Source of the DNA: Alphaproteobacteria bacterium
GTDB taxonomy: Bacteria; Pseudomonadota; Alphaproteobacteria; Micropepsales; Micropepsaceae
NCBI GenBank assembly: GCA_947473475.1
Contig: CANJBZ010000014.1
Coordinates: 1 to 64,000, forward strand
Direction: 5' to 3'
DNA: 64,000 nt
Part shown: in pieces, positions 4,284 to 47,622 of the stretch
Numbering within the stretch: position 1 is the stretch's first letter
Layout: the number at the start of each line of letters is the position of its first letter
Notes under the pieces: model-generated
Told to the model about the DNA's origin: nothing
The model's input: only the letters and a program-made list of their open reading frames with translations
The model's database searches: none
Program-made: the position numbers and the translations under genes

Positions 4284-5591
4284 TTATCCGACCGGCGGGC
4301 GCCCGATGCTGACATAGGCGAAACCGGCCTTTGCCATTTCTTCCGGGCGATAAATATTGCGCAGGTCGACCATCAGCGGCGTCTTCAGAAGCCGTTTCGT
4401 GGTCTTCAGATCGAGCGCGCGAAACTCGTTCCACTCGGTCAAAATCACCACGCCGTCCGCGCCTTCCAGCGCTTCATAGGCGTCGGCGCACATTTCCACG
4501 TCGAGAAGTTTCTTGGCTTCGTGCATGCCTTCCGGATCGTAGGCGCGAATGCGTGCGCCCTGCCTTACAAGCTCCGGCAGGATCACGAGGCTGGGGGAAT
4601 CGCGCATGTCGTCGGTGTTCGGTTTGAACGTCAACCCCAGCACCGCCACGGTCTTTCCGGCGACGCCGCCGAAAGCGTCCGCAACCTTATGCGCCATGCG
4701 CATCTTGCGTTCTTCGTTTACCGCCGCGACGGCGCCGACGATCCGTGTCGGCGCGCCGACTTCCTCAGCCGTGCGCAACAGAGCCAGCATATCTTTCGGA
4801 AAGCATGAACCTCCGTAACCGGGACCCGCGTGGAGGAATTTTCCACCGATGCGGCCGTCGAGACCAATGCCGCGCGCGACGTCCTGCACATTGGCGCCGA
4901 CCTTCTCGCAGATATCCGCCATCTCGTTGATGAAGGTGATCTTGGTCGCAAGAAATGCGTTCGCCGCGTATTTGATCAGTTCCGACGTCTCGCGCGATGT
5001 GAACAGCATCGGCGTCTCGTTCAGGAACAAGGGCCGGTACAACTCGCGCAAAACCGCGCGGGCCTGATCGCTGACGGTGCCGCACACCACGCGGTCGGGA
5101 CGCCGGAAGTCCTCGATGGCCGAGCCTTCACGCAGGAATTCCGGATTGGACGCCACGTCGAAGTCGGCGTCGGGGCGGATCGCGCGGATGGTATCCTCAG
5201 CCCGCTTGCCCGTGCCGACGGGAACCGTGGATTTGGTGACGATCACGGTATAGCCGTCCAACGCCGCGGCGATCTCTTCGGCGGCTTTGAACACATAGGT
5301 CAGATCGGCGTGACCATCGCCCCGGCGCGAGGGCGTGCCCACCGCGATGAACACTGCGTCGGCCTCTTTGACGCTGGCGGCGAGATCGCCGGTGAACGAC
5401 AGCCGTCCCGCTTTGACACTATCGGCGACGACTTCCTCAAGACCCGGCTCGTAAATCGGCATCTTGCCGGCTTTGAGCATGTCGATCTTCGACATGTCCT
5501 TGTCGACACAGACGACGTGATGGCCGAATTCCGAAAAGCAGGCTCCCGAAACCAGCCCAACATAGCCGGTTCCAATCATGGCGATACGCAT
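4284..5591 (-). CDS. ugd: UDP-glucose 6-dehydrogenase
   Basis: Oxidises UDP-glucose to UDP-glucuronate with two NAD. The 435 residues match the bacterial Ugd length. The NAD motif GTGYVGL is at residues 8-13, the catalytic cysteine is Cys263 in GPGYGGSCFPKD, and the conserved ASNPEFLREG segment is near 147-156. The C-terminal UDP-binding domain begins with VLGLTFKPNTDDMRDSPS. ATG at 5591 starts directly at the first Rossmann strand. It is convergent with the epimerase that would use its product, and a palindromic repeat separates the two stops. Confidence 0.95.
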   Translation of the reverse strand: MRIAMIGTGYVGLVSGACFSEFGHHVVCVDKDMSKIDMLKAGKMPIYEPGLEEVVADSVKAGRLSFTGDLAASVKEADAVFIAVGTPSRRGDGHADLTYVFKAAEEIAAALDGYTVIVTKSTVPVGTGKRAEDTIRAIRPDADFDVASNPEFLREGSAIEDFRRPDRVVCGTVSDQARAVLRELYRPLFLNETPMLFTSRETSELIKYAANAFLATKITFINEMADICEKVGANVQDVARGIGLDGRIGGKFLHAGPGYGGSCFPKDMLALLRTAEEVGAPTRIVGAVAAVNEERKMRMAHKVADAFGGVAGKTVAVLGLTFKPNTDDMRDSPSLVILPELVRQGARIRAYDPEGMHEAKKLLDVEMCADAYEALEGADGVVILTEWNEFRALDLKTTKRLLKTPLMVDLRNIYRPEEMAKAGFAYVSIGRPPVG

Positions 5592-10425: not shown

Positions 10426-13400
10426 ATGGTCGAACGTCTCACAGCGATAGCCCGGTCGCCCGGCCGTATCACCGTCACCGGCGCCCCTGAAGGCTACGAC
10501 TCCTACGCCGCCGCCGAAGCAGCCAAGCGCGAGCAGAAGCTTGTGCTGTTTGTGGCGGCCGACGACTCGCGCGCCGCCGCCGCGCTGGAAGCCGCTCGCT
10601 TCTTCGCGCCCGAACTTCAGGTTCTGTATTTCCCGGCCTGGGATTGCCTCCCTTACGACCGCGTTGGTCCGCGCTCCGATATCGAGAGCCAAAGGCTGGC
10701 GGCGCTTTCCGTATTGGCCGCGCGGGGTGACAAGGCCGGCCCAGCCCTCGTGATCACCACCACCAACGCGCTCATCCAGCGGGTGCCGCCGCGCGAATTT
10801 GTCGCCGGCGCCAGCTTCCTCGCGACGGCAGGCAAGCGGGTGGACCGTGACGCGCTGCTGAAATTCCTGGTCCGCAACGCCTACAGCAGCACCGGCACGG
10901 TGCGCGAGCCCGGCGAGTTCGCGCTGCGCGGCGGTATCATCGATCTGTGGCCGCCGGGCAGCGCAGAGCCGTTGCGTCTGGATTTCTTCGGCGATGATCT
11001 GGAAACCATCCGCCGCTTCGATGCGGAATCCCAGCTTACGACGGGTACGGAAGAACGCATTGCGCTGCTTCCCGCCAGCGAAACGCCGCTCGATCCGGCC
11101 TCCATCAGCCGCTTCCGTACCGGTTACATCACGGCGTTCGGCGCGGTGACCGATGGCGATCCGCTGTACGGCGCCATCAGCGAAGGCCGCAAGCACGCGG
11201 GGCAGGAGCACTGGCTGCCGCTGTTTCACGAAAAGCTCGAAACGCTGTTCGATTATGCCGGCCGCGCGCAGGTGTTCCTGAGCCCCCATGTGGACGAGGC
11301 CCGCAAGGCGCGCGCCGAACTGATCGCCGATTACTATTTGACACGCGAACAATTGCGTCAGGGCGCGGCGGATAAGAAAGAGTCGGGCGGTGCGCCGTAC
11401 AAACCGCTGAAGCCGGACGCGCTCTATCTCACCGAACGCGAGTGGGAAGCAGCGCTGCACAGCCGCCCCGTGCGCGTGCTCTCGCCGTTTACCGGGCCGG
11501 ACACGCCTACCTCCACCGATGCTGGTGGCCGTCCCGGACGCGACTTCGCGCCCGAACGCGCCCAGGAAGGCGGAACCGCCGAAGGTCTTGGCCGTGTCAA
11601 CGTCTTTGAAATGGCAGCCGCGCACATCGCGGCCCTGCAGCAAAGCGGCAAACGCGTCATCGTGGGTTGCTGGACCGAAGGGTCGGCAGACCGCATGGGC
11701 GGCGTCCTCGCCGATCACGGCGTCACCGCGCTCAAGCAAATCGCCGATTGGCGTGAAGCCGCCGCTTTGCACAAAACCGCCGTCGGCCTTGCGGTCATCG
11801 GTATCGAGCACGGCTTCGAAGGCACTGATTTCGCGGTCCTCACCGAACAGGACGTGCTCGGCGACCGCATGGTGCGTTCGCGCGGGCGGCAGCGGCGCTC
11901 GCAGAATTTCCTCTCGGAAGCCTCCGCGCTCACGCCGGGCGATCTCGTCACCCATATCGAGCACGGCATCGGGCGCTATCTCGGGCTCAAAGCCATTGAG
12001 GTGCAGTCCGAACCGCACGATTGCCTGGAACTGCAATATGACGGCGGCAAGCTGTTCCTGCCCGTGGAGAACATCGAGCTTCTGACGCGCTTCGGCTCGG
12101 AAGACAGCGGCGTGCAGCTCGACAAATTAGGCGGCGTCGGCTGGCAGACGCGCAAGGCGCGCATGAAGCAGCGCGTGCGCGAAATGGCCGCCGAGCTGAT
12201 CCGCATCGCCGCCGCCCGCGCCATGAAGGAAATGCCGGCGGTCGATCCGCCCGAGCATGCCTATGACGAATTCTGCGCCCGCTTCCCCTACGTGGAAACC
12301 GAGGATCAGGAAAAAGCCATTGGCGACGTCATCGAAGATCTCGCCAAGGGGCGGCCGATGGACCGGCTGGTCTGCGGCGATGTGGGCTTCGGCAAAACGG
12401 AAGTGGCGTTGCGCGCGGCCTTCGTCATGGCGATGTCGGGCAAGCAGGTGGCCGTCGTCGTGCCCACCACGCTACTGGCGCGCCAGCATTTTCGCACCTT
12501 CCGCGCCCGCTTCGCTGGCCTGCCGCTCAAGGTCGCGCAGTTGTCCCGCTTCACGCTGCCGAAAGACGCAAAGGACGCCAAGGCCGGCCTTGCGAGCGGC
12601 GATCTGGATATCATTGTCGGCACGCACGCGCTGCTCGCCCAAAGCATTGAGTTCGCGCGGCTTGGCCTTGTCATCGTGGACGAGGAACAGCATTTCGGCG
12701 TCAACCACAAAGAGCGGCTGAAGAGCCTCAAAGCCGACGTGCATGTGCTGACGCTGACCGCCACGCCCATTCCGCGCACGCTACAATTGGCGCTATCGGG
12801 TGTGCGCGATCTGTCGCTGATCACCACCCCGCCGGTGGACCGCTTGGCGGTGCGCACCTATGTGACGCCGTTCGATCCCATGACCATCCGCGAGGCGCTG
12901 CTGCGCGAACATTATCGCGGCGGCCAAAGTTTCTATGTCGTGCCACGCATTGCCGATCTGGCGCAGGCCGCCGAATTTCTGAAAGAAACCGTGCCGGAAG
13001 TGAAAACCGCCGTCGCGCACGGACAGATCGGCGCGGCGCAGCTCGAAGACACCATGACCGCTTTCTACGACGGCAAGATCGACGTGCTCGTCTCCACCAA
13101 CATCGTGGAATCCGGCCTCGACATTCCCACTGCCAACACGCTGGTCATCCATCGCGCCGATATGTTCGGCCTGGCGCAGTTGTACCAATTGCGCGGACGC
13201 ATCGGCCGCGCCAAACAGCGAGCCTATGCCTATCTGACGACGCCCGCCGACAAGAAGCTGACCGAAGGCGCGCAGCGGCGGCTGCAAGTGCTGCAATCCC
13301 TCGACAATCTGGGCGCGGGCTTTGCGGTGGCAAGCCACGATCTGGACATTCGCGGCGCTGGCAATCTGTTGGGCGACGAGCAATCGGGCCATGTGCGCGA

Positions 13401-13941
13401 GGTCGGCATCGAGCTGTATCAGAGCATGCTGGAAGAAGCCGTTGCCTCGATGCGCGAGGGGCGCATGGACGAGGAGATCGCCGACACCTGGTCGCCGACG
13501 ATCAGCCTCGGCGCCGCCGTGCTGATCCCCGAAACCTATGTGCCCGATCTGAACGTGCGCATGGCGCTTTACCGCCGTCTGTCCGAATTGGACGACACCC
13601 GCGCCATCGACAGCTTCGCCGCCGAACTGATCGACCGCTTTGGGCCCCTCCCCGAAGAGGTGGAGCACCTTTTCAAGATCGTCCACATCAAGCGCCACTG
13701 CCGCATCGCCATGGTGGAAAAGGTGGAAGCCGGCCCCAAAGGCGCCACGCTGACCTTCCGCAACAGCGCCTATCCCAACCCGCTCGGCTTGGTGAAACTC
13801 ATCACCGAACACGCCGGCACGATGAAAGTGCGCCCGGATCAGAAGGTCGTGGTGATGCGCAACTGGCCGACGCCGGAGGCGCGGCTGAAGGGCGCAGAGG
13901 CGCTACTGGCGCAATTGGCGCGGCTGGCAAAGGCCGCGTAA
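10426..13941 (+). CDS. mfd: Transcription-repair coupling factor Mfd
   Basis: Translocase that removes RNA polymerase stalled at DNA damage and recruits UvrA. 1171 residues, normal length. The UvrB-like N-terminal region (about 1-330) is followed by a linker. The RNA-polymerase-interacting CarD-like domain starts near residue 503 (GDLVTHIEHGIGRYLGL). Walker A GDVGFGKTEVA begins at residue 651, the DEEQHFGV box lies near 750, TATPIPRTL follows, and the TRCF C-terminal domain ends the protein. It starts three bases after sdhE. A decayed copy of its last codons lies at 20333-20440. Confidence 0.96.
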   Translation: MVERLTAIARSPGRITVTGAPEGYDSYAAAEAAKREQKLVLFVAADDSRAAAALEAARFFAPELQVLYFPAWDCLPYDRVGPRSDIESQRLAALSVLAARGDKAGPALVITTTNALIQRVPPREFVAGASFLATAGKRVDRDALLKFLVRNAYSSTGTVREPGEFALRGGIIDLWPPGSAEPLRLDFFGDDLETIRRFDAESQLTTGTEERIALLPASETPLDPASISRFRTGYITAFGAVTDGDPLYGAISEGRKHAGQEHWLPLFHEKLETLFDYAGRAQVFLSPHVDEARKARAELIADYYLTREQLRQGAADKKESGGAPYKPLKPDALYLTEREWEAALHSRPVRVLSPFTGPDTPTSTDAGGRPGRDFAPERAQEGGTAEGLGRVNVFEMAAAHIAALQQSGKRVIVGCWTEGSADRMGGVLADHGVTALKQIADWREAAALHKTAVGLAVIGIEHGFEGTDFAVLTEQDVLGDRMVRSRGRQRRSQNFLSEASALTPGDLVTHIEHGIGRYLGLKAIEVQSEPHDCLELQYDGGKLFLPVENIELLTRFGSEDSGVQLDKLGGVGWQTRKARMKQRVREMAAELIRIAAARAMKEMPAVDPPEHAYDEFCARFPYVETEDQEKAIGDVIEDLAKGRPMDRLVCGDVGFGKTEVALRAAFVMAMSGKQVAVVVPTTLLARQHFRTFRARFAGLPLKVAQLSRFTLPKDAKDAKAGLASGDLDIIVGTHALLAQSIEFARLGLVIVDEEQHFGVNHKERLKSLKADVHVLTLTATPIPRTLQLALSGVRDLSLITTPPVDRLAVRTYVTPFDPMTIREALLREHYRGGQSFYVVPRIADLAQAAEFLKETVPEVKTAVAHGQIGAAQLEDTMTAFYDGKIDVLVSTNIVESGLDIPTANTLVIHRADMFGLAQLYQLRGRIGRAKQRAYAYLTTPADKKLTEGAQRRLQVLQSLDNLGAGFAVASHDLDIRGAGNLLGDEQSGHVREVGIELYQSMLEEAVASMREGRMDEEIADTWSPTISLGAAVLIPETYVPDLNVRMALYRRLSELDDTRAIDSFAAELIDRFGPLPEEVEHLFKIVHIKRHCRIAMVEKVEAGPKGATLTFRNSAYPNPLGLVKLITEHAGTMKVRPDQKVVVMRNWPTPEARLKGAEALLAQLARLAKAA

Positions 13942-13977
13942 GCGAAGCCTTCACGCAGCAGAGAGTTTGATGGACCG

Positions 13978-14082
13978 CCCCCTCACCCTAACCCTCTCCC
14001 CGAACGGGGAGAGGGAAGCGCGCACGAAAATCCCTCTCCCCCAGCGGGGGAGAGGGCCGGGGTGAGGGGGCGGTCTATCCAC
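13978..14082. repeat. Palindromic CCCTCACCC...GGGTGAGGG repeat
   Basis: Follows mfd. CCCCCTCACCCTAACCCTCT on the left is matched by its complement ending GGGTGAGGGGG on the right, with inner GGGGAGAGGG / CCCTCTCCCC hairpins. The same family recurs around 40296-40334, 40426-40464 and 47517-47612. It sits between the 3' ends of mfd and the cupin gene and may serve as their terminator. Confidence 0.85.
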
Positions 14083-14172
14083 CCGAATAGCGTCTCAGTT
14101 TGATCGCCACGCATTTCGGTGGGCCATTGGCGAAAGTCGCTGCGGAGGCGAATACGGCATGCCCCAGGCGCT

Positions 14173-15009
14173 TCACTTCACGTCGTAGTTCACGGCGAAG
14201 TAGCCGATCGAGCCGGTTTTCGACGTGTCTTTCCACTGGTGCGGAGTCTTGGCGGGGATGGTGATTACATCGCCCACGGTCAGGTGATGATTGGCGCCGC
14301 CCTCGATGCCCGCTCCGCGCGTCTGGCCGGGGCCGTCCGCCTTCGGATCGATCAGCTTGCCGCCGGTGAGGAATTCCGCTTCGCCATCCCTGATGATGAA
14401 GACGTGGTTGGTGTTGGCGTGAATCTCTGAGCCGCGCTGCATACCGCGATTGGCGATGACGGTCAGACCTTCTTCTTCGATGATGCGCCCGCCCTTGACG
14501 AAGGTCGCTGCAATCTTGTCGTGGTCGATGTATTTGACCGTCGGCGGAAAACGAAACCCGGGCGTGTTGTCGAAATTCACGGCGTAATAGGCGATTGAGC
14601 CGGTCTTAGAGGTGTCTTTCCACTGGTGCGGAGTCTTGGCGGGGATGGTGATCACGTCGCCCTTGCTTAGGTGATGGCTGACTCCGCCCTCGATACCGGT
14701 GCCGCGCGTCTGGCCGGGGCCGTCCACTTTCGCGCCGACCAGCTTGCCGTCGGTGATGAACTCCGCTTCGCCCTCCTGGATGATGAACACATGGTTGGTA
14801 TCGTCGTGCATCTCAGAGCCGCGCCCCATGACGCGCTGGGCGATGACGATCAAACCTTCATCCTTCAGGACTTGCTCGCCCTTAGCGAAGCTGGCCGCCA
14901 TCTTGGCGTGGTCGACGGTATGCACCTGCGCCGGAAACCCGGCAGCGAGACCTGCCGTTGCCAGAGCCACGGTCGAAAGCATCGCGGTGAGTGCGAGCGG
15001 ATATTTCAT
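14173..15009 (-). CDS. Exported two-domain cupin protein
   Basis: 278 residues with a signal peptide (MKYPLALTAMLSTVALATAG) followed by two tandem cupin domains of about 120 residues. Each has a metal-binding-like GSEMHDDTNHVF or GSEIHANTNHVF segment and a GDVITIPAKTPHQWKDTSKT segment that is identical in both. The strong identity between repeats suggests recent internal duplication or conversion. ATG at 15009 is chosen over the one at 15033 because AAGGGG lies upstream and the signal peptide begins there. Likely periplasmic; ligand unknown. Confidence 0.78.
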   Translation of the reverse strand: MKYPLALTAMLSTVALATAGLAAGFPAQVHTVDHAKMAASFAKGEQVLKDEGLIVIAQRVMGRGSEMHDDTNHVFIIQEGEAEFITDGKLVGAKVDGPGQTRGTGIEGGVSHHLSKGDVITIPAKTPHQWKDTSKTGSIAYYAVNFDNTPGFRFPPTVKYIDHDKIAATFVKGGRIIEEEGLTVIANRGMQRGSEIHANTNHVFIIRDGEAEFLTGGKLIDPKADGPGQTRGAGIEGGANHHLTVGDVITIPAKTPHQWKDTSKTGSIGYFAVNYDVK

Positions 15010-15077
15010 AAGCGGCCCCTTGGTTGGCGTCATCGAAAGTCAGTTTAGCGCAGACCTCCAAAGAGGCCGAGACGAAT

Positions 15078-15485
15078 TCAGCCCGGTCCCTTGGTGTACG
15101 TCACGCGGGGTGAAAGACCGATCTGTTCGTAGCGCAGCCCATCGGACGGCCGGTCGAGCCGCCGCAGATAGACTCCTGTGGGACTGCTTTTGTCGGGCCA
15201 GCCGGTAGCCGTCACCTTGTCGCCGTATTTGAAGGTCGTCTTCGATATGCCGACGTCCACGAGTTCGTGGAGATTATCCATTTCCAGCCGCCATATCTGC
15301 TTTCCGCCGGACGGCGCGGTGACCGCGATCATCAGGACGGGATGCGGGTTGGAGAAGTGGTATTCCTCAACCGTGCCCTCGGCCGTCACGGAGCGGTTCT
15401 GGTCATAAGCGCTCAGGGAATGGTGCGCCTGCGCCACGGACGCGACGAGGCAGAGCCCCAAGATCGGTCCAGTCCATTTCCGCAT
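15078..15485 (-). CDS. DUF6152-type exported protein
   Basis: 135 residues with a signal peptide ending in QAHHS, then HSLSAYDQNRSVTAEGTVEEY and a NPHPVLMIAV core, the pattern of the DUF6152 family (small exported OB-like proteins of unknown function starting 'HHSxxxYD'). ATG at 15485 is preferred over the start at 15509 because GGAG lies seven bases upstream. The first six residues (MRKWTG) and the preceding ~70 bases are shared with the hydrolase gene starting at 17329, although the mature proteins are unrelated. Confidence 0.75.
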   Translation of the reverse strand: MRKWTGPILGLCLVASVAQAHHSLSAYDQNRSVTAEGTVEEYHFSNPHPVLMIAVTAPSGGKQIWRLEMDNLHELVDVGISKTTFKYGDKVTATGWPDKSSPTGVYLRRLDRPSDGLRYEQIGLSPRVTYTKGPG

Positions 15486-15556
15486 GTTTCGTCTCCGCAT
15501 CGTCTTCAACCCCGAAGCTACCGCACTCCGCGCGGCCTGAACAACGGAGAGTTATG
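15486..15556 (-). promoter_or_regulatory. Leader shared with the 17.3-kb hydrolase gene (copy A)
   Basis: Read on the plus strand, the stretch just beyond the DUF6152 start (TCGTCTCCGC.TCGT.TTCAAC, then GCTACCGC, then CTGAACAACGG.G.GTTA) matches 17330-17400 in the same order and nearly the same spacing. Conserved non-coding sequence in front of two unrelated genes suggests a common promoter or operator, or a duplicated leader. No -35/-10 pair is obvious. Confidence 0.5.
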
Positions 15557-15571
15557 AGCACCGGCGCGTTG

Positions 15572-15627
15572 GATCCTCCCCTGCGAAGCGGGGGAGGGGG
15601 ACCATGCGAAGCATGGTGGAGGGGGCC
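15572..15627. repeat. Palindromic repeat with ACCATGCGAAGCATGGT core
   Basis: Two adjacent hairpins: CTCCCCTGCGAAGCGGGGGAG and ACCATGCGAAGCATGGT, followed by GGAGGGGGCC. A near-identical copy ends the 18789-19049 block. It lies immediately downstream of the hydrolase stop codon. Confidence 0.85.
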
Positions 15628-15640
15628 TTACTCCGTATGT

Positions 15641-17329
15641 TTACTGCCCCGCGCGAAGCTCCACCTTTCCGGCCTCGTCGGCATAGGACCGCACCGAAGT
15701 TTCCGTCAGAAACTTCTCGTCGCGCAGTTTCTCCGCGGCTCTACGGACGCAGGCGACATATGTGTCCCGCCCCATAGTGTCGTTTTGCGCGAGAAGACCC
15801 AGCCGCTGCCATGCCTGGGTCAGCGTTTCGCGTTGGTCGCGCCGGCCATTGTGATTCATATCGACATACATCAACTGGCCGTCCAGCGGTTCCAGCCCTG
15901 CGCCATCGAACGGGGAAAAACTGGTCACACCGGCGCTGCCGGAATTGTTGCCGCGCAACGGCGGAAACGGAAAATATGCCCCGAGCGGACAGGCCGTGTC
16001 CGGCAGAGCGATCGCAGCAGCGGAACTGACGGCGGGATCGTCCGCACGCGATTTTGGCGGCTCGATACCTTTCTCCACCCAGTTGTCCAGAAGATCGACC
16101 GCACTGTCCATCACACGCGACAAGTGTACGACCTGCACATCGCGCTCGCGGTTGTTTTCCAGGTCCTCGTCGCCCTGGTGGCTGACGCCGCGCACCTCAT
16201 ACATGCGGAAAACATTATCCATGCCCTTCTTGCCGAAGAGCTTGGCCATGTTGCGCTTGTTGGTCAGCGCCGTGTCGGAAATGCCGGCCGGCGCATGCTT
16301 CGCATCGAACTCGCCCACGACGACATTGGAATAGACCAGCGGATAAGCCTGGTGCGAAATGATCAAGGTCCTAACGAATTTCGCCTTCTCGTCTGCCGTG
16401 CGGTACAGGACATCCTGCCCGTTCTTGAACAACACCGGCAGGAACAATCCACCGCCCGGATCGTCGCCGATGAATCCGCTGATGGTTTCCTGCCCGTCCG
16501 CGTCCTTGTTGATCTGCGGATCGGATTGGATCGTGTAGTTCAGCCCAAGCGCCGTATAGGTGCCGGCGGAATGGCCCCACCAATAATTGCGCGACGGCTT
16601 CTTCCCCAATCGTTGTTTCAGCATATTTCCCACCAGCCGCACCTCATCGAGGATCAGCTCCGGGACCATGTTGATGTTTTGATCGGTCCACACCGTGCCG
16701 TCGTCCAGCACGGCGGAAAAATCCCCGGGCACAAAGCCATCGGCATTGCGCCGCGTGCGCGCGACCGCAAACCCGTGTTCGAGCATGGAACGTTCATATT
16801 TGTTCGCGTCGAACGGTTTGCCGCCGTCATAATATTCGTTCCACGGACGCAAGGTGCGGCGCAGGAACGATCCCGATCGGCCATGCACCATGACGAAGAC
16901 TTTCCCGTTCCAGTCCTTTTCCGGATAGGTCAGCGTGAGCGAAGTCCCCTTCTCCATTTGATAGGAGAGGATGCCGTGAAAACGCGGGGAATCGACGTTG
17001 CCGAATTGCGTGTAGGTGAAATCCGGCGCCGAGGTGAAATAATTCTGCCGCGCGCCCTCCTTCACGACATAGCCGGAAAGCGTGCCGGAAAGACCGATAT
17101 CGAGCCGATGATATTTTCGTTGCGCGTCGACAAGACCGTAATCGAGCATGCGGCATTCTTCCTGCCCGACCGCTTTGCCGTTCACACTCTTCTTCGGCGC
17201 CATGAACGCATTGCAATTGTCCGCGGAGGGTGCGGCGTTAGTCCCGCCGCTCCCTTGCGGTTGCGCGTGCGAACCCGCCGCAGCAAGAACCGAAATAAGC
17301 GCCAAGAACGTTCCGGTCCACTTCCGCAT
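15641..17329 (-). CDS. Exported alpha/beta hydrolase
   Basis: 562 residues with a signal peptide (MRKWTGTFLALISVLAAAG). The nucleophile elbow is GHSAG in NYWWGHSAGTY near the middle of the protein, preceded by KVFVMVHGRSGSF, which fits the oxyanion-hole strand of an alpha/beta hydrolase. The large size and the NADGFVPGDF segment recall the tannase-like or 'alpha/beta hydrolase domain' exported esterases. The substrate is not identifiable. ATG at 17329 has GGAGACGAGAC in front; the in-frame start at 17353 lacks a ribosome site. It is divergent from an MFS carrier that might import a product (inference). Confidence 0.75.
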   Translation of the reverse strand: MRKWTGTFLALISVLAAAGSHAQPQGSGGTNAAPSADNCNAFMAPKKSVNGKAVGQEECRMLDYGLVDAQRKYHRLDIGLSGTLSGYVVKEGARQNYFTSAPDFTYTQFGNVDSPRFHGILSYQMEKGTSLTLTYPEKDWNGKVFVMVHGRSGSFLRRTLRPWNEYYDGGKPFDANKYERSMLEHGFAVARTRRNADGFVPGDFSAVLDDGTVWTDQNINMVPELILDEVRLVGNMLKQRLGKKPSRNYWWGHSAGTYTALGLNYTIQSDPQINKDADGQETISGFIGDDPGGGLFLPVLFKNGQDVLYRTADEKAKFVRTLIISHQAYPLVYSNVVVGEFDAKHAPAGISDTALTNKRNMAKLFGKKGMDNVFRMYEVRGVSHQGDEDLENNRERDVQVVHLSRVMDSAVDLLDNWVEKGIEPPKSRADDPAVSSAAAIALPDTACPLGAYFPFPPLRGNNSGSAGVTSFSPFDGAGLEPLDGQLMYVDMNHNGRRDQRETLTQAWQRLGLLAQNDTMGRDTYVACVRRAAEKLRDEKFLTETSVRSYADEAGKVELRAGQ

Positions 17330-17400
17330 GTCTCGTCTCCGCGTCGTGTTCAACGGATAAGGCTACCGCCTTCGCATGGGCTGAACAACGGTGCGTTACC
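17330..17400 (-). promoter_or_regulatory. Leader shared with the DUF6152 gene (copy B)
   Basis: Counterpart of 15486-15556: TCGTCTCCGC.TCGT.TTCAAC, GGCTACCGC and CTGAACAACGGTGCGTTA are conserved in order. Copy B lies in the divergent interval between the hydrolase and the MFS gene, so it is the more natural candidate for the original promoter region. Confidence 0.5.
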
Positions 17401-17480
17401 AAGTTCCGCTTTTCCCCATAACAAGCCCTTCGCCCGCTCAACCGTGATAGCGTCCCGGCGCGCCGAGCGATGGGGGGCAT

Positions 17481-18755
17481 ATGACTGAGCAGGACCGCGT
17501 CTTTACGAAATGCGCGTGGCGGCTCGTGCCGTTGATGCTGCTTCTCTATTTTGTCAGTTACCTGGACCGCGTGAACATCGCGTTCGCCGCGCTGACGATG
17601 AACAAGGATTTGGGCTTCTCGCCCGCTGTTTACGGCCTGGGCGCGGGCATTTTCTTCATCGGCTATTTTCTGTTTCAAATTCCCGCCAACCTGATGCTCG
17701 AACGCTTCGGGCCGCGCCGCTGGATTTTCTTCATCCTCATCTTGTGGGGCGCGCTGTCCGCAGGCAACGCCCTGATCCGCGATCCCCTGACATTATATGC
17801 GTTGCGCTTCCTCTTGGGTTGCGCGGAAGCCGGGTTATATCCCGGCATTGTCTACTATCTGACACTGTGGTTTCCGGCGTCCTATCGCGCGCGGGTGACG
17901 GCAAATTTCCATGTCGGCCTGCCCCTGGCGTTCGTCATCGGATCGCCCCTGTCGAGCTACCTCTTGGAACTTAACGGCCTTGGCGGGCTGCACGGCTGGC
18001 AATGGATGTTTGTGCTGGAGGGGCTGCCTGCCATCGTGCTCGCGTTTGTGGTGTTGAAGGTCTTTGCGGACAGTCCAGCGCAGGCAAGCTGGCTCAGCGA
18101 AGCCGAACGCGCAACCATCGCAAGACACCTCGCAACCGGCGACGCGCCTCAGCACAAGGTTCTGTGGCGCGCGTTGCTGGACCCTCGCGTCATCGTGCTC
18201 GGACTCATCTTTTTCGCCGATCAATGCGCGGCTTCAGGCAGCCGGTTCTGGCTGCCGCAGATGCTGCAAGGCATGGGATTTTCGAATATCGAAGTCGGAT
18301 ATGCGGTTGCGCTGCCCTTCGTCATCGGAATCGGCGCCATGTCCTGGTGGGGGCATTCGGGCGATAAGCGCGACGAGCGGGTATGGCACATCGCGCTTCC
18401 GCTGTTGATCTCGGCGTTGGGACTACTGGTCGCCAGTGTCTCGCAATCTCCCATCCTCATTCTTGCCGCTCTGGTCGTCCTCATGATTGGGCCGCTTCTC
18501 TTCCTGGCGGCCTTATGGGGTTTCAGTTCGGTATTCCTCGCCGGGCGCGGCTCCGCCGGCTCCATCGCGATGGTCAGTTCGCTCGGCAGCTTGGGCGGCT
18601 TTGTCGGCCCCAATGTCATCGGTACGTTAAAGACCGCCACCGGCGCGTATGGCCCCGGCATGAGCGTCATTGCCCTCATGCTCATCGCTTCGGTCGCCGC
18701 CGTGCTCATCATGGGCCGCGCGAGCACGGTCCGGGAGAAAGTCAAATTGGCCTGA
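17481..18755 (+). CDS. MFS transporter, ACS (anion:cation symporter) type
   Basis: 424-residue inner-membrane carrier with about twelve hydrophobic segments. The first helix ends in FVSYLDRVNIAFA and the loop after helix 2 reads FFIGYFLFQIPANLMLERFG, both characteristic of the anion:cation symporter family (phthalate, hexuronate and similar organic acids). GLYPGIVYYLTLWFP fits helix 4. ATG at 17481 follows a run of six G. It is divergent from the exported hydrolase; a joint role in using an organic acid or ester is plausible but unproven. Confidence 0.87.
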   Translation: MTEQDRVFTKCAWRLVPLMLLLYFVSYLDRVNIAFAALTMNKDLGFSPAVYGLGAGIFFIGYFLFQIPANLMLERFGPRRWIFFILILWGALSAGNALIRDPLTLYALRFLLGCAEAGLYPGIVYYLTLWFPASYRARVTANFHVGLPLAFVIGSPLSSYLLELNGLGGLHGWQWMFVLEGLPAIVLAFVVLKVFADSPAQASWLSEAERATIARHLATGDAPQHKVLWRALLDPRVIVLGLIFFADQCAASGSRFWLPQMLQGMGFSNIEVGYAVALPFVIGIGAMSWWGHSGDKRDERVWHIALPLLISALGLLVASVSQSPILILAALVVLMIGPLLFLAALWGFSSVFLAGRGSAGSIAMVSSLGSLGGFVGPNVIGTLKTATGAYGPGMSVIALMLIASVAAVLIMGRASTVREKVKLA

Positions 18756-18788
18756 GCGGTATTCGCGGTCCCAAAATGACTGCGCTGT

Positions 18789-19049
18789 TGATCCTCCCCT
18801 GCGAAGTGGGGGGCTTTCGCACAATCATCACCTCCCCCGTGCGGGGAGGTCGAAATGCTGAAGCGGCTTCAGCCGCGAAGGCATTTCGGGTGGGGGGATT
18901 GTTGCCACCGCGTTCCCCCCACCCGAAATTGCTCGCGGAACGTCGCGATCAATTTCGACCTCCCCGCACGGGGGAGGTCATTTGCTGAGGTGGCTCCTCC
19001 CCTGCGAAGCGGGGGAGGGGGACCATGCGAAGCATGGTGGAGGGGGCCT
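18789..19049. repeat. Composite of palindromic repeats
   Basis: The gap between the MFS and PepSY genes is packed with repeats. A partial copy of the CCTCCCCTGCGAAG unit begins at 18789. A larger inverted unit (18828-18980) has CACCTCCCCC.TGCGGGGAGG, CGAAATGC and GGCATTTCGGGTGGGGGGATTG arms. A full copy of the ACCATGCGAAGCATGGT unit ends at the PepSY stop codon. The large inverted unit recurs at 26209-26358. Confidence 0.85.
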
Positions 19050-20214
19050 ACTCCGCCGGTGCGACTCGCGCCGCCTTCGCCACGCGGCGCGAAACCCGCC
19101 GTCGCGCCCACCAGATGTTGAATCCGGTAACCGCGAAGAACAGCGGCAGGAAGCCGGAGACGAACACCGTTGCTTGCCACAACAGCCCGAACGGCGCGCC
19201 GTAATGCAGTGCGTTCAGTAGGTTGATAGTCCGCTCGGCCGTTCCGTGATAGCGCGGGTCATCCACATAACGGGCGTTTCCCGTGGCCTGATTGAACATG
19301 ACCAAAATCTGGGGCTGCGTCGCGTCGCCCACCCTCGTGGACTCCAGAAACACCACGATGGGCCTTCCGGCCTGCTCCGGCATTTGCACGCCGACGGCGC
19401 GCGCATCGGGCACCGCCCGCACCGCAGAGGCGACGGCCATATCGGCATCCAGAGGCCCCGGCGTGGGCACGAACCCCGCCCTGGGTTCGCCCGAACCCAG
19501 GCCGGACGGCAGCACGGCAAGCACGGCGTTGGTAGCGGTCTGGGGGAAGCTCAAATAGACGCCGCTGACGCTCATGATGAGAAACACGGCAAGCGTCCAG
19601 ATTCCGGCGGCATGATGCAGATCGAGATTAAGCGCCAATCCCCGCGCGCCGCGGCGCACGAAAAACGCACGGCGCCATTGCCCGCGTCTCGGCCACCACA
19701 GAACCAGCCCGCTGACGCCCATCAGCGTCATCACCACGCCAAGCCAGCCTACGACTTTCGCCCCGATATAGGATTTCATCGTCAGGAACGCATGAATGCG
19801 GATGAGAAAGCCGAGCGCCTCGCCGCGCGGCACCACCTCTTCGCTGCCCAGAACTTTCAGCGACACCGGGTCCACATAAATCTTCACCGGACGCACCCGG
19901 CGGCCCGGAGGCTGCATTTGCACGGTGACCGGATCGCCCTCGCGCAGCGCCAGATCGGCGCGGCCGAGGCGGGCGTTGGCCGGCCCCGCCGCCTGCGCAA
20001 CCTCTATCGCGCGCATGATGGGTTGCCTGGGTCCGGCAGCGGTCGCAGGCGGGAAGGACCGGCGCACATAATCGCTTTGCACCAGCAGCGCGCTACCCGA
20101 AATGCCGATCACCACAATGGGAATACACAGCGCCAGCCCAAGCCACAGATGCACGGTCTGCAGCGCGCGCCGAACCCCGCGCCACGCCCCCTCCGCTGTC
20201 CTCTCCCGGCTCAC
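19048..20214 (-). CDS. PepSY-associated transmembrane protein
   Basis: 388 residues. The N-terminal membrane helix with the HLWLGLALCIP motif, a long periplasmic domain, paired helices around residues 140-220 (with GVSGLVLWWPRR) and a final helix FFAVTGFNIWWARRR are the pattern of PepSY-TM proteins linked to siderophore uptake or ferric reduction. GTG at 20214 is the only start upstream of helix 1 and has a weak ribosome site. The stop codon abuts a palindromic repeat. No TonB receptor is adjacent, so the partner is unknown. Confidence 0.8.
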   Translation of the reverse strand: MSRERTAEGAWRGVRRALQTVHLWLGLALCIPIVVIGISGSALLVQSDYVRRSFPPATAAGPRQPIMRAIEVAQAAGPANARLGRADLALREGDPVTVQMQPPGRRVRPVKIYVDPVSLKVLGSEEVVPRGEALGFLIRIHAFLTMKSYIGAKVVGWLGVVMTLMGVSGLVLWWPRRGQWRRAFFVRRGARGLALNLDLHHAAGIWTLAVFLIMSVSGVYLSFPQTATNAVLAVLPSGLGSGEPRAGFVPTPGPLDADMAVASAVRAVPDARAVGVQMPEQAGRPIVVFLESTRVGDATQPQILVMFNQATGNARYVDDPRYHGTAERTINLLNALHYGAPFGLLWQATVFVSGFLPLFFAVTGFNIWWARRRVSRRVAKAARVAPAE

Positions 20215-20332
20215 CTAAATCTACGCCCGTGCCAAACCTGTGTGGCTTATAGCATCGCCAGCCTGCCCCGATAACGACGCACTTTCGCTGAGTCCGCAAT
20301 GGGGCAAGCGAATATCAGGGCGGTCTCCTGCG

Positions 20333-20440
20333 CTCCTCGCCGAACACGCCGACATCATCAGGGTGCGCCCGGATCAGAAGATTGCGGTGATCGGCAATTA
20401 GGAGCCGCTCGAATGTCGGCGCAAGCGGCGCTTACCAGAT
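20333..20440 (+). pseudogene. Decayed fragment of the mfd 3' end
   Basis: Reads L-L-A-E-H-A-D-I-I-R-V-R-P-D-Q-K-I-A-V-I-G-N then a TAG. Mfd residues encoded near 13795-13866 read LITEHAGTMKVRPDQKVVVMRN then Trp. The register continues beyond the stop with matching E, R and K residues, so the TAG stands where the intact gene has TGG. At DNA level CGAACACGCCG and GTGCGCCCGGATCAGAAG are shared. It is a relic of an mfd gene (own or foreign) lying 113 bases before the TIR gene. Confidence 0.75.
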
Positions 20441-20553: not shown

Positions 20554-20922
20554 ATGGCTGGTAAAGTTATTTTTGTCGCGTTTGCGATAGAGGACGAACG
20601 TATTCGTGATCTTATTAAGGGGCAGTCCCTTCATACAGATACGCCGTTCGAGTACATCGATATGTCTGTTAAAGAGGCATATGACGAAGAATGGAAAAAG
20701 CGGGTTCGTACACGCATTCTACGTTCCGATGGTGTGCTGGCAATCGTTAGCAAGAACTCGCTCAATTCATCTGGTCAGAAATGGGAAATACAGTGTGCTA
20801 AGGACGAAAAGAGGCCGGTGCGAGGTATCTGGGCGTATAAGGAAGATCGCACCAATTTAGTTGGCGTGAACACCATGGTGTGGACCTGGGACAATATAGC
20901 CGCTTGGATAAATACGCTCTGA
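20554..20922 (+). CDS. TIR-like (ThsB-type) signalling protein
   Basis: 122 residues matching the TIR-like (DUF1863/ThsB-type) fold. It has strand A VIFVAFAIEDERIRDL, then GQSLHTDTPFEYIDMSVKEAYDEEWKKRVRTRI, then SDGVLAIVSKNSLNSSGQKW, and Glu79 in KWEIQCA as the candidate catalytic glutamate. Family knowledge: such proteins sense phage and make a cyclic-ADP-ribose-like messenger. The first gene of a tight operon (12 bases to the caspase gene). ATG at 20554 is chosen because the fold starts there; the reading frame upstream runs through non-homologous sequence and an mfd relic. A/T-richer than its surroundings, suggesting transfer. Confidence 0.85.
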   Translation: MAGKVIFVAFAIEDERIRDLIKGQSLHTDTPFEYIDMSVKEAYDEEWKKRVRTRILRSDGVLAIVSKNSLNSSGQKWEIQCAKDEKRPVRGIWAYKEDRTNLVGVNTMVWTWDNIAAWINTL

Positions 20923-20934
20923 GGATTTTCTCTT

Positions 20935-21891
20935 TTGCGCAAAGCACTAGTTGTCGGCATTGATTATTATGAGCACATCGGTGGACTTCACGGATGTGTA
21001 AACGACGCTTTTGGGGTCAAGCAAATGCTTGATCGCCATGCAGATGGGTCAGTTAATTTTTCTCAACCCAAGCTGATGGTCGGAACGGCGCCAACCGATC
21101 TCGTTACGCGCAGCGAGCTAAAAGAAGCGGTGCGCGATCTGTTCGCCGACGACAACGACGTGGTTCTTTTCTATTTTGCCGGACACGGTTACATCGAATC
21201 CACTGGCGGATACCTATGCGCCAGCGACTGCAAGTCAGGGGATGATGGCTTGCCACTCGCCGAAATTATGACTTTTGCGAATAAGAGTCCCGCGCGCAAT
21301 AAAATCATAATGCTCGATAGCTGTCATAGCGGGGGGCTCGGGAACCATCCAGTTAATCCTCAACTGACGGAGATAGCCGAAGGGGTCACGATTCTGACGG
21401 CGTCGACCAAAGATCAGTATGCAGCCGAAGTAAATGGGGGGGGAGTCTTTACCGATCTGCTAATCGATGCTCTAGGCGGTGCGGGGGCAAACCTTGTTGG
21501 CGAGGTGACGCCCGGAAGCGTGTACGCTCACATTGATCAATCGCTTGGGTCTTGGAGCCAACGGCCAGTCTTTAAGACGAATATTAAGCGTTTTGTTTCA
21601 CTGAGGCAGGTGCAACCCCCACTTCCGTTAGCTGACCTCCAACGGCTGGCTGAGTTTTTCCCAATGCGAGGATATGAATATCAACTCGACCCTTCTTACG
21701 AACCTACCGACGCAACAGCAGATGCGGCGCACACAGCGGTTTTTGCAATTCTTCAAAAGTATAATCGGGTAAACCTCTTGGTTCCGGTGGGCGCCCCGCA
21801 TATGTGGCATGCTGCTATTCATAGCAAGACTGTTAGGCTTACAGCGACGGGAGAGCACTACCGAAACCTAGTTGAACAAGGCCTCATCTAA
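20935..21891 (+). CDS. Caspase-like protease (peptidase C14)
   Basis: 318 residues from a TTG start, chosen because [24 protein letters not shown] is the exact N-terminal pattern of prokaryotic caspase-like proteases and GAGGA lies nine bases upstream. Catalytic His84 is in FYFAGHGY and Cys130 in [11 protein letters not shown]-terminal ~90-residue extension (about 226-318) contains a conserved-looking [16 protein letters not shown] block and could bind the activating messenger. Known from recalled literature: in TIR-caspase (type IV) Thoeris the TIR product activates the protease, which then degrades cell proteins. Operon position here fits that model. Confidence 0.87.
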
Positions 21892-21893: not shown

Positions 21894-22181
21894 ATGGATA
21901 AGGAGTTAGTCGAGGGCGCCCTGTTTAGCCTCCTTGAACCGCTTGCCGCAATCGAACATGAGCGTTGGGCGCGTTGGCAGCGATACATGCACGATTCTGG
22001 CCAACTTCAGGCTGATGGTTCACTGCTCATTCCGGCAGCGTTGGTTCAGCATTGGGAACGACAGATTGCGACACCGTATGCGGCCTTGTCTGAAAGCGAG
22101 AAAGAGAGCGATCGCGAACAGGTGCACCACGTTATCAAGTTGATAGTTAATCGCTTCGCCGCTCCTTGGTCCTATTCTTAA
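21894..22181 (+). CDS. RyR-like small protein of the TIR-caspase operon
   Basis: 95 residues starting two bases after the caspase stop. IEHERWARWQRYM and TPYAALSESEKESDREQV follow the pattern of bacterial RyR (ryanodine-receptor-type) repeats: E-H-x-R-W, then PY..L...EK..DR..V. No signal peptide or membrane segment. Such domains turn up near nucleotide-signalling conflict systems, so a regulator or sensor for the protease or the TIR messenger is a reasonable guess, but no function is shown. It shares the A/T-rich composition of the two genes before it. Confidence 0.7.
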   Translation: MDKELVEGALFSLLEPLAAIEHERWARWQRYMHDSGQLQADGSLLIPAALVQHWERQIATPYAALSESEKESDREQVHHVIKLIVNRFAAPWSYS

Positions 22182-22224: not shown

Positions 22225-22440
22225 TTAGGGTTTCAGCCTCAACAGCTTCGCCGGATTGGTCTGAGACATCGTCACGATGTCCGCCGCAGAAATGCCTTGG
22301 GCCATCAGGGCTTTGTACATCGCCAGCAGGCCGTCGGTGTGCAGGGGATTGGCGGGTTGGCCGAGGTCGGTGGAGAGGACCACGGAGGACGCTCCGACGG
22401 CGCGGATCACCTCCACCTCCTTGCGCACCATGTCCGGGCA
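22225..22440 (-). pseudogene. Duplicated 3' fragment of the DUF6282 gene
   Basis: Encodes the last ~70 residues of the intact gene at 24011-24904 with only two amino-acid changes visible (SQTNPAKLLRLKP against SQANPAKLLGLKP). By eye about 15 of roughly 214 bases differ and there is no indel. Homology begins at CCATGTCCGG and runs through the stop codon. There is no 5' portion, so it is not a functional gene. Together with the intact copy it forms a direct repeat around two unknown genes. Confidence 0.88.
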
Positions 22441-22443
22441 CGA

Positions 22444-23187
22444 TTAGGGGCGGGGGACGTTCAGGGCAGGGACTTCAGTGAAGCCCAAATGAACTGTTGT
22501 CGTTGGTGGCAGATCGGCGTTCGGCAGGGGGAGTGGTCTGGAATTGCCGGCGCCAGGAAAGGACACGGCAGGAGTTGGGAGGGCGCCTGGAGTGGACACG
22601 AGGGTTACGGGGGGCGGCCCCAACTCAGCAAGGACCGCACTCATTTCATCGGCGTAATAGGAGCGCCCGCCGCAGGTAGAGTTGAAGTCGTTGACCAGTG
22701 AATTGCCTCGGTCATTTTCCTTCCGCGCAAGGTCTACGGCAATATTGTAATCGTTTATGGCGGTACTTTGAGCGCGGACGGCAGCATTAAAGCCGTCAAC
22801 CGATGCCTGACTTCTTGCGTTAACGAGCAGGCGTTGCACATCGAGCGCCTTGTCCTGAGCTTCGATCTGGCTTCGGCGCGCGGTCAACTGGTATTCGTCA
22901 GCTCTTGACTGACTTCTGCTGGCATCAATGTTCCGCTGTGTGACGACACAGGTTCGCAACTGATCACGCGTAAGCGCTTGACGGACAAAAAAACGCGACC
23001 CTCCAATGCCGCCGCTGGCAGGCCCCAAGGTCACGAGTTCGCGTTGCGGCGTGGGTGGGGCAGGAGGCTCTTCCATAGGCATTTCGACTGCAGTGGTGTC
23101 CACTGCCATTTCGAGTGCCGGCTTGTTTGCGGCGCATGACGCAAGAAAAGCGCACGACGCAACAGCGATCGGACTTAGACGCCTCAT
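22444..23187 (-). CDS. Predicted lipoprotein of unknown function
   Basis: 247 residues. The N-terminus MRRLSPIAVASCAFLASC ends in a lipobox-like LASC, so the mature protein may be lipid-anchored. A proline-rich stretch (about 35-48) is followed by a helical, Arg/Gln/Ala-rich region (about 70-170) likely to form a coiled coil, and a proline-rich tail. ATG at 23187 has GGGAG upstream. The two internal cysteines (CVVTQ and CGGRS) could pair in the periplasm. It ends four bases from the duplicated DUF6282 fragment, so its 3' end marks an insertion boundary. Family not recognised. Confidence 0.65.
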   Translation of the reverse strand: MRRLSPIAVASCAFLASCAANKPALEMAVDTTAVEMPMEEPPAPPTPQRELVTLGPASGGIGGSRFFVRQALTRDQLRTCVVTQRNIDASRSQSRADEYQLTARRSQIEAQDKALDVQRLLVNARSQASVDGFNAAVRAQSTAINDYNIAVDLARKENDRGNSLVNDFNSTCGGRSYYADEMSAVLAELGPPPVTLVSTPGALPTPAVSFPGAGNSRPLPLPNADLPPTTTVHLGFTEVPALNVPRP

Positions 23188-23317
23188 GGCTCACTCCCAT
23201 GTTCCATTCATCGCGTAATTTTTGGGAGAATAGAGCCTTCATGGTTAATTTTGAAGGCCGAACTATATTTGAGTCCTGTAAATTGGAAAGCGCCCCTTCC
23301 GTAAGGACAGCGGGGCG

Positions 23318-23965
23318 TTATTTCAGTTTCGCCAAGCCGCGCGTTACACTCTCCTGCAGTCTTTTGAAATTCCGCGGATTTTCGGTGTAGTAGGTGGTGC
23401 ATCCCAAATAATTCTTGATCGCTGCCCCATCGATCGTTTTCGGAGCGGGATCGGGCTGCTTCGCCATTTGCGGCCGCCCACCTTTGATCCATTCGAGGAG
23501 TTTCGTCGGCGGTCCGGTCATGTTGATCCACAGCGCCATGTAAATAAGGGCCTCTGCGGTGATGTTCCGGCCAGTGCCGCTCGCAGCAGCGATGCATTTA
23601 TCGACTTGCGACGAGACGTGTTCAAAGATCTTCTGATCCATGGAATCGACGACGTCGGTGGCGTTCGCCAACGCCTGATTGACGCGTTCGGTTTGTTCCG
23701 GCGTCAGGGGATTATCCGGGCACGGTTTCGAGAGTAAGCCCACATAGGTGCCAATTTCTTGCGGCGTGAAGTTCGCGCGCTGAAGGCAGGTCTTAAAAGC
23801 CGCGGTGGCTTCGTCCTGCTTTGCTGCGAGATCGCCTTGCATGAAACCAAAGCTCGCGCCGCTGTCGCCCTTTCGCGCGAAACAAAGGCAATAGGGCGAT
23901 CCGTCCGAGATTTCATGATCCCGGAGAGCGGTCTTGAGCCCGGCCAGAACGTCTGGATTAAGCAT
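23318..23965 (-). CDS. Unknown protein, faint lysozyme-like signature
   Basis: 215 residues with no signal peptide, behind a strong GGAGG site five bases before ATG 23965. The N-terminal part has Glu18 followed by SGASFGFMQGDLA, which resembles the SGVTIGxGxDLG segment of T4-lysozyme/pesticin-type muramidases; this is only a local resemblance. Several cysteines (CLC, CLQ, PCP, KCI, LGC) suggest disulfides or metal binding. Translated in the same direction as the lipoprotein 130 bases downstream. Both lie between the two copies of the DUF6282 3' end, so they probably arrived together. Confidence 0.6.
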   Translation of the reverse strand: MLNPDVLAGLKTALRDHEISDGSPYCLCFARKGDSGASFGFMQGDLAAKQDEATAAFKTCLQRANFTPQEIGTYVGLLSKPCPDNPLTPEQTERVNQALANATDVVDSMDQKIFEHVSSQVDKCIAAASGTGRNITAEALIYMALWINMTGPPTKLLEWIKGGRPQMAKQPDPAPKTIDGAAIKNYLGCTTYYTENPRNFKRLQESVTRGLAKLK

Positions 23966-24010
23966 GTTGCCTCCAAGATGAATGGCTTCATGTTGCTAGT
24001 TTGGCGGCTA

Positions 24011-24904
24011 CTAGGGTTTCAGCCCCAACAGTTTCGCCGGATTGGCCTGAGACATGGTCACAATGTCCGCCGCTGAGATGCCCTGGGCCATTAGCGCCTT
24101 GTACATGGCCAGCAGGCCGTCGGTGTGGAGGGGATTGGCGGGTTGGCCGAGGTCGGTGGAGAGGACCACGGAGGACGCTCCGACGGCGCGGATCACTTCC
24201 ACCTCTTTGCGCACCATGTCCGGCGTATTCCCGCCATGGACGAGTTCGATATAGGCGCCCAGCTTCGCGGCCTGTTGAATCTCGGCGAGCGTGAGGGGGC
24301 CGCCGGGGTTGGTCAGCGCATGCGTGACCATGACGTTCTGCACGCCCTGGCGCTTCGCCTCCGCGATGATCACCAGATCTTCGGCGCCCGAGGAATGTCC
24401 CGTCTCCAGCACCAGATTGCTTTTGGCGGCGATAGCCATCACCTGCGCCACCGCCGGCAGAACTTTGCCGTCTTTCACCACGGGCGCAAACGGGCGATTT
24501 TCTTTGGTAAGTTTCACCTGCGCCTCGGAGTCATAGGTCGGCAGCCAGACCACCTTGCCGTAGCCGCCTTTGACCTTGGTCATCCATTCCACGGCGGCCG
24601 GATTGACGCCGCCGACGGTCAGATCCAGCGAGATGCCGCCGAAGACCTCGATGCCCGGCACGATCTTGCGAAGGAGAAACGCTTGCGACTGCGTGGGCTC
24701 GTAGTGATTTTTGATCACGATGGCGCGCATGCCGTTCTGCTTCGCCAGGCGCACCAACTCGATGGCGTCGAGCTTTCTTCCCACGCCATCCGGATCGGCA
24801 TGCGCGTGCATATCGATCGCGCCGGTCAGGGTTTGCGCCTGCGCTGTTACGGAAAACATTGGCAGCGACAACAGCAGAAACACAGCCGCGAGCTTGGACT
24901 TCAT
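24011..24904 (-). CDS. DUF6282 exported metal-dependent hydrolase-like protein
   Basis: 297 residues with a signal peptide ending in VTAQAQ. IDMHAHADPDG near the mature N-terminus is a metal-binding H-x-H of the amidohydrolase (TIM-barrel) type, with IKNHYEPT, ETGHSSG and VTHAL as later candidate ligand histidines. This set fits the DUF6282 family, whose substrates are unknown. ATG at 24904 is preferred over 24958 because GGAAAGGGG precedes it and the signal peptide starts there. Its last 70 codons are duplicated at 22225-22440. Confidence 0.78.
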   Translation of the reverse strand: MKSKLAAVFLLLSLPMFSVTAQAQTLTGAIDMHAHADPDGVGRKLDAIELVRLAKQNGMRAIVIKNHYEPTQSQAFLLRKIVPGIEVFGGISLDLTVGGVNPAAVEWMTKVKGGYGKVVWLPTYDSEAQVKLTKENRPFAPVVKDGKVLPAVAQVMAIAAKSNLVLETGHSSGAEDLVIIAEAKRQGVQNVMVTHALTNPGGPLTLAEIQQAAKLGAYIELVHGGNTPDMVRKEVEVIRAVGASSVVLSTDLGQPANPLHTDGLLAMYKALMAQGISAADIVTMSQANPAKLLGLKP

Positions 24905-25038
24905 GGATGCCCCTTTCCTCGATATGAAATTCATTCTGCCCCCCGATGCACGAGCCATCCCCCGACGGATGAACGGAACTTAGCAGTTTTTGGTGGCGCG
25001 GTTACGTCGGGCAAGCTTTCCGTGTGCGCTAAACAACC

Positions 25039-26111: not shown

Positions 26112-26208
26112 GGTGAGCCTCCAAAGGAAGGACGAAACGCAACGCCGTCAAAGGAAGGGCAGGGTAGGCACGCGTTGCCCACGGCGTCAACGCGTGGCCC
26201 CCGCTCAA

Positions 26209-26358
26209 TCACCTCCCCCACCGCGGGGAGGTCGAAATGCAGAAGCGGCGTCAGCCGCGAGGCATTTCGGGTGGGGGGATTGCTGCGGATAGCTTCCCCC
26301 CACCCGAAATTGTTCGCTGCGCTCCCAATTTCGACCTCCCCGCGTTGGGGGAGGTGAT
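26209..26358. repeat. Palindromic CACCTCCCC / CGAAATGC repeat
   Basis: A full copy of the large inverted unit seen at 18828-18980: CACCTCCCCCACCGCGGGGAG, CGAAATGC, GGCATTTCGGGTGGGGGGATTG, then CCCCCCACCCGAAATTG, AATTTCGACCTCCCCGCG and GGGGGAGGTGATTG. It occupies most of the ~330-base gene-free stretch 26112-26442; nothing else was recognised there. Confidence 0.85.
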
Positions 26359-26442
26359 TGCCCGTGCAAGCTGGCGATCATGAGGAGTAGCCGCCACGCC
26401 TGCGACGGGCGTAGATTGGGGTGGATAGCGGCGGAGGCAATC

Positions 26443-42698: not shown

Positions 42699-42840
42699 GG
42701 CTGCTTGAACATAGCCTTAAATTCGGGCGGGCGGGGCAGGATCAGGCTTTGCCGAAAACTACGTTTCACTCTATAAACCCGCGCCTGGGTGGTAACTCTG
42801 CCAATCCCTGACAGCTACATTGGAAGGAAGGATACGGGGC

Positions 42841-45000: not shown

Positions 45001-45026
45001 GACGGGCTGAAAGCCTAAGCAGTTGA

Positions 45027-45065
45027 AAAGGGCGGACCGAGAAATCGGCCCGCCCTTTTTCTTTG
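45027..45065 (+). terminator. Terminator after paralogue 1
   Basis: AGGGCGG-A-CCGA, loop GAAA, TCGG-C-CCGCCCT, then TTTTTCTTT. A typical intrinsic terminator with a seven-base outer stem and a U-run, 30 bases after the stop. Confidence 0.85.
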
Positions 45066-45102
45066 AAATTGCGCGGTTGAATCTGCCTATCAACCCATGT
45101 CA

Positions 45103-45192
45103 TGGCCCGGCCCGACCGGGCAATCCAGCAGGCGCGCGTCCGCGCGCCATTGAGCCTGCGTCGCCTGGATGGCCGCTTTTGCGGGCCATGAC
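45103..45192. repeat. Palindromic CATGGCCCGG...CGGGCCATG repeat
   Basis: TGTCATGGCCCG at left pairs with CGGGCCATGACA at right. The core has CCAGCAGGCGCGCGTCCGCG and GAGCCTGC. The block GGC.ATCCAGCAGGCG.GCGTCCG recurs at 57152-57268. It fills much of the ~346-base gene-free stretch 45001-45346, together with the terminator; nothing else was recognised. Confidence 0.82.
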
Positions 45193-45346
45193 ACGAAGAA
45201 TCTGCCCCATGCTGCGGTTGCGTTAACGCTGATGTGCGTCGTCTTGGTCCGTGCCGTCTCGTGCTTAACCGCCGGATGCGGTATAAGGACGCGCGTCATA
45301 CGAGTGCGTCAGGGCTTCGCTCTCAAAACCACCAGGGAAGGGACAC

Positions 45347-47509: not shown

Positions 47510-47516
47510 GGAAATC

Positions 47517-47612
47517 CCCTCTCCCCCTCGGGGGAGAGGGTTAGGGTGAGGGGGCGGTGCCTCCCGAGAGTTACCCCCTCACCCCAGCCATCTCCCCCAG
47601 GGGGGAGAGGGA
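47517..47612. repeat. Palindromic CCCTCTCCCC...CCCTCACCCC repeat
   Basis: CCCCTCTCCCCCTCGGGGGA with GAGGGTTAGGGTGAGGGGGCG at left and CCCCCTCACCCCAGCCATCT with CCCCCAGGGGGGAGAGGGAG at right. A member of the family seen at 13978-14082 and in the rnr 3' end, here starting seven bases past the stop of paralogue 2. Confidence 0.85.
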
Positions 47613-47622
47613 GATCGCTACA

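Follow-up and report, generated by a model that had tools for sequence, protein, structure and literature searches.

A short scrap of DNA just upstream of a TIR defence gene is probably what remains, decayed and no longer coding, of a second mfd 3' part, made from the lineage's own gene by an old local duplication. The scrap lies in a 64,000-nucleotide stretch (the window) of a Micropepsaceae genome, Alphaproteobacteria bacterium (assembly GCA_947473475.1, contig CANJBZ010000014.1). A first-pass annotation of the window had proposed two sources for it: an old local duplication, or a piece of a foreign mfd carried with an island, in which case the 3' end of mfd would be a hot spot for such islands. 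The evidence favours the former; neither the foreign piece nor the hot spot finds support. Taken alone the scrap matters little, except as evidence that the stretch was rearranged.

The fragment and its probable parent gene

The firm part of the match covers 65 bases, of which 52 are identical to mfd, with no gaps and in the same strand (Table 1). In a BLASTN comparison within the window (360-base query) this 80% identity has an E-value of 4e-11. A search of the whole genome returns the scrap at 59.9 bits (E 1.3e-9), and the sole other match is mfd itself. As a control, the last 900 bases of mfd were aligned with 58 other segments of this genome, each 6.5 kb long, and no score exceeded 35.6 bits. 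The decayed mfd piece is therefore real. The protein-level score of the scrap alone is weak (E 0.095), so a protein profile by itself would miss it.

Table 1. Positions of mfd, its fragment and neighbouring features in the window.
Feature	Position	Strand	Remarks
Intact mfd	10426-13941	+	13798-13862 is the part matched by the scrap; C-terminal part matched in 60/60 family genomes
DNA between mfd and the scrap	13942-20332		five genes, none of an integrase or transposase family; GC 0.618, as in the host
Cupin gene	14173-15033	-	
DUF6152 gene	15078-15509	-	
Alpha/beta-hydrolase-like gene	15641-17353	-	
MFS gene	17481-18755	+	
PepSY_TM gene	19048-20214	-	
Decayed mfd 3' fragment, firm part	20333-20397	+	52/65 identical
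Probable continuation of the fragment	20398-20427	+	TAG for TGG, then weak similarity down to chance
TIR protein gene (ThsB-like)	20554-20922	+	first cassette gene
Caspase-like protease gene	20935-21891	+	conserved His84 and Cys130
Small RyR-domain protein gene (putative)	21894-22181	+	third cassette gene
Detached 3' tail of DUF6282 gene	22226-22437	-	197/212 identical (93%) to 24012-24223, through the stop codon
Low-GC (0.564) insert between DUF6282 tail and intact gene	22438-24010	-	two ORFs of unknown family
Intact DUF6282 gene	24011-24958	-	

The scrap can be read as EHADIIRVRPDQKIAVIGN, opposite EHAGTMKVRPDQKVVVMRN in Mfd, with 12 of 19 residues equal. Directly after EHADIIRVRPDQKIAVIGN, a TAG stands opposite the TGG (Trp) codon of Mfd, as the first-pass annotation had noticed. 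The matching residues that it described beyond this stop fare less well: similarity is weak (53% over offsets 60-90) and at chance level thereafter. The edges differ in character, with a sharp onset at 20333 and a fade by about 20427, roughly 44 bases before the position of the mfd stop. Thus, although a match of 108 bases had been claimed, 65 of these are firm and the whole extends over 65-95.

The spacing between the mfd stop and the scrap is 6,391 bases, somewhat less than the seven kilobases originally given. The scrap is outside the TIR reading frame; because TIR homologues start at window 20554, it ends some 125-155 bases before the TIR start.

Its relationship to other mfd genes was assessed in a set of 131 scanned loci, 88 of which have an alignable stretch, yielding 66 distinct sequences besides the window's own mfd. 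The scrap differs from its own mfd at 13 of 65 bases and from the other 66 sequences at no fewer than 17 (median 26). Seven columns carry a host base that is in the minority among mfd genes, and at five of them the scrap has that same base. Searched as DNA against 61 genomes (own included), the fragment finds matches in its own genome and in one genome of the same genus only; plasmid and phage records searched for it return no match. With its own mfd nearest and no better source in these genomes, plasmids or phages, local origin is favoured over import. This comparison, which the first-pass annotation had suggested as the deciding one, thus falls on the side of duplication. The data give no support to import from another genus; a donor from a very close strain or the same species is possible. 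(Sixty-five bases are too short for a reliable tree.)

The scrap also bears marks of disuse. At three columns where all 32 of 32 relatives agree it carries another base, as expected of a sequence that has lost its function and is free of selection. Its mismatches are spread evenly over the codon positions (4/4/5), and this too points toward lost function, although the difference from the relatives' pattern is not significant alone (P = 0.19) and by itself does not reject a selected donor.

Duplication, insertion or import

The most likely history would begin with an old local duplication, tandem or segmental, that placed a second mfd end about 6.5 kb downstream of the first. Most of this second copy would then have been lost, leaving 65-95 functionless bases to drift. 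The low-GC cassette of TIR, caspase and RyR genes would have arrived afterwards, as part of a turnover of the stretch that used or created the boundary beside the scrap. We infer both the tandem mechanism and this order of events. A simple tandem copy should at first, before later loss, have been followed by the same DNA as mfd; no such similarity is seen after the scrap, and this counts against it.

The main rival is an insertion: foreign DNA with an mfd end of its own would have recombined into the host mfd, the incoming end restoring the host gene and the old end being pushed 6.5 kb downstream to decay. We regard this course as unlikely, though worth serious weighing. It agrees with the order of intact gene, insert and detached tail, with gene and tail in one orientation, and with genes after mfd unlike those of the relatives examined. 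However, the scrap ends about 44 bases short of the stop codon position, there is no identical core, and a search with Pfam reveals no recombinase family among the five intervening genes, whose GC content is host-like. Nor is there a second clear case among 99 mfd loci.

A further point for an insertion lies on the other side of the cassette from the scrap, where a DUF6282 gene has a detached tail of its own, 1.8 kb from the intact gene. The tail matches as far as the stop codon and not beyond. Differences fall at third codon positions in 13 of 15 cases, and at second positions in none; this bias suggests that the tail and the intact gene diverged while both were working alleles. Unlike the mfd scrap, the DUF6282 tail looks imported or recombined. 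In both cases the intact gene is followed by other genes and then by the detached tail, which keeps the orientation of its gene. The nearby, younger DUF6282 tail hints at a shared insertion process, against the duplication reading. Because DUF6282 is present in 3 other genomes of 60 only, its ancestral gene order is unreadable; it is absent from the stretch examined downstream of mfd in 20 mfd regions and in locus L062.

Carried further, this reasoning would make the tails of mfd and DUF6282, which point towards each other from either side of the cassette, the scars of one recurring insertion process. Incoming DNA would replace the 3' end of a host gene with a working copy, without a recognisable recombinase, and defence genes would settle repeatedly in the gap between convergent genes. 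The proposal is a long shot. If the two tails did come from one process, they would provide a sequence signature by which insertions made without a recombinase could be recognised.

A further tail elsewhere in the genome argues the other way. A 451-kb sample of this genome contains one more clear case, in which a 120-base piece (83% identical) of an S8-protease-like gene lies about 1.8 kb downstream on the same strand (G000 contig C4, 19735-19854 and 21615-21733; L089-L091), beyond an oppositely oriented aldehyde-dehydrogenase-like gene. (Both names come from reading of the sequence.) The same layout at this third gene indicates that mfd is not alone in leaving such debris; for this reason ordinary duplication and loss is preferred for mfd, with insertion as its chief competitor.

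Other candidates were set aside. A match on contig C1 is, by reading of its sequence, a repeat and not a gene tail. Between mfd and the scrap, 15454-15554 and 17298-17398 are 80% identical over 102 bases although the two proteins differ; this apparent third gene tail was rejected, being the leader and signal-peptide region common to two neighbouring minus-strand genes. A plus-strand ORF at 15554-17488 is probably spurious antisense.

The window has other repeated sequences. A partly palindromic repeat of about 155 bases is found in two copies, at 18827-18982 and 26208-26359 (84% identity), each matching its own reverse complement; it is possibly a small mobile repeat. Four long paralogous genes with 69-73% DNA identity occupy one 13-kb stretch, 42820-55922.

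That a foreign mfd piece was brought in together with the TIR cassette is decidedly improbable. The scrap does border the low-GC cassette, and relatives of the cassette caspase are found on 84 plasmid records. Yet the closest mfd is the genome's own, plasmids and phages have none, and the GC content of the scrap (0.621) is host-like. Moreover, no mfd piece lies within the 19.9 kb examined of L061, a relative whose cassette has the same three genes. Finally, chance similarity, which the shortness of the scrap and its protein-level score might suggest, is ruled out in practice by the DNA-level E-value and the 58-segment null, and deserves virtually no credence.

The region downstream of mfd in other genomes

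As a hot spot for islands, the 3' end of mfd is not supported. A scan for detached tails was entered with 102 loci, 99 of which have at least 1.5 kb downstream of mfd (1,004,671 bases together); some are duplicates of one contig (L038 and L101 among them). At E 1e-3 nine matches were found, all of 34 bases or fewer except those in the window and in locus L172. The L172 copy (about 4450-4498 of a metagenome scaffold) is a 96% identical mfd tail directly after a run of N, and for that reason is discounted as a probable scaffolding or assembly artefact. The claim is thus left with no convincing second case in 99 loci, and with no recombinase family in the five genes behind mfd.

Gene content after mfd does vary between genomes of the same genus. 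In one (G006), the window's aldehyde-dehydrogenase (37014) and RNase-R-like (40428) genes lie within about 4-7 kb of mfd; in another (G003), only the RNase-R-like gene of that pair lies within this distance; a third (G005) has yet other genes. In the window itself, 23 kb of other genes separate mfd from the pair. Across 22 loci compared, no downstream ORF is common to more than 8 others. Such variable content alone is no proof of an integration site. The inspection of relatives recommended by the first-pass annotation therefore reveals variable genes after mfd but no recurring detached tail. Literature searches combining mfd with genomic islands, integrases and insertion hotspots returned no paper, and a broader search nothing relevant, in the portions of the literature accessible to them.

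The TIR cassette and known systems

The cassette next to the scrap stands out by composition: its genes have a GC content of 0.465-0.531 in a window of 0.607. Three residues are invariant in aligned homologues: Glu79 (E79) of the TIR protein; and His84 (H84) and Cys130 (C130) of the caspase. We take these to be the catalytic residues. Among the plasmid records with caspase relatives, 43 cover at least 80% of the query. In the window's own class such relatives are rare (a search of 385 genomes, own included, finds them in 3 others at E 1e-25), and a caspase scan of genome contigs gave no match. In other relatives the cassette position includes a second TIR gene: L180; and, by sequence reading, L077 and L078.

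The third cassette gene merits more attention than the mfd scrap. It appears RyR-like on three grounds: a match to the RyR domain (PF02026) at a Pfam E-value of 7.7e-5, under the curated cut-off; a match of its four-sequence profile to RyR chimera and ryanodine-receptor chains in the PDB (E 1.8e-5); and His, Trp and Asp residues (H22, W25 and D73) that are invariant in its relatives and may correspond to ligand-site residues, a fourth ligand residue not being found. Relatives are present on 21 plasmid records. In 18 of these the RyR gene follows a caspase gene on the same strand at a distance of 60 bases or less, as judged against the 60 caspase matches listed of 84. In the other three it is upstream, 3 kb away, or without a caspase among those 60 listed.

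What might this protein do? Phage RyR proteins cut or bind 2'cADPR and 3'cADPR, according to the accessible part of a preprint (PMC13232231). By analogy, a cyclic ADP-ribose signal may be tuned or read by a RyR protein that the host encodes next to its TIR and caspase. Within the literature searched, two papers contain both RyR and Thoeris. (In another paper, PMC8195603, ryanodine occurs in the reference list only.) Host RyR proteins next to TIR-caspase pairs therefore invite a test of such signal tuning.

Three known arrangements invite comparison. Genomic islands at the 3' end of a gene leave a displaced-tail architecture. The window has the corresponding order of intact gene, other genes and detached tail in one orientation, but differs in having no recombinase, no identical att-like core, a tail that stops short of the stop codon, and no convincing repetition at other mfd loci.

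Type IV Thoeris consists of a TIR protein and a caspase-like protease encoded in one operon, with N7-cADPR as the signal (PMC12847820, in its accessible part). The cassette appears to resemble this system: its TIR and caspase-like genes are adjacent, in one apparent operon, with residues of catalytic type conserved. It differs in adding the gene for a putative RyR-domain protein.

The scrap itself is closest to a truncated pseudogene fragment from local duplication. It is very short for one (65-95 bases), and its downstream flank is no longer recognisable. Nevertheless it combines the expected features: similarity beyond chance; truncation with a disabling in-frame stop and no open frame of its own; and, as its closest relative, the intact parent gene in its own neighbourhood.
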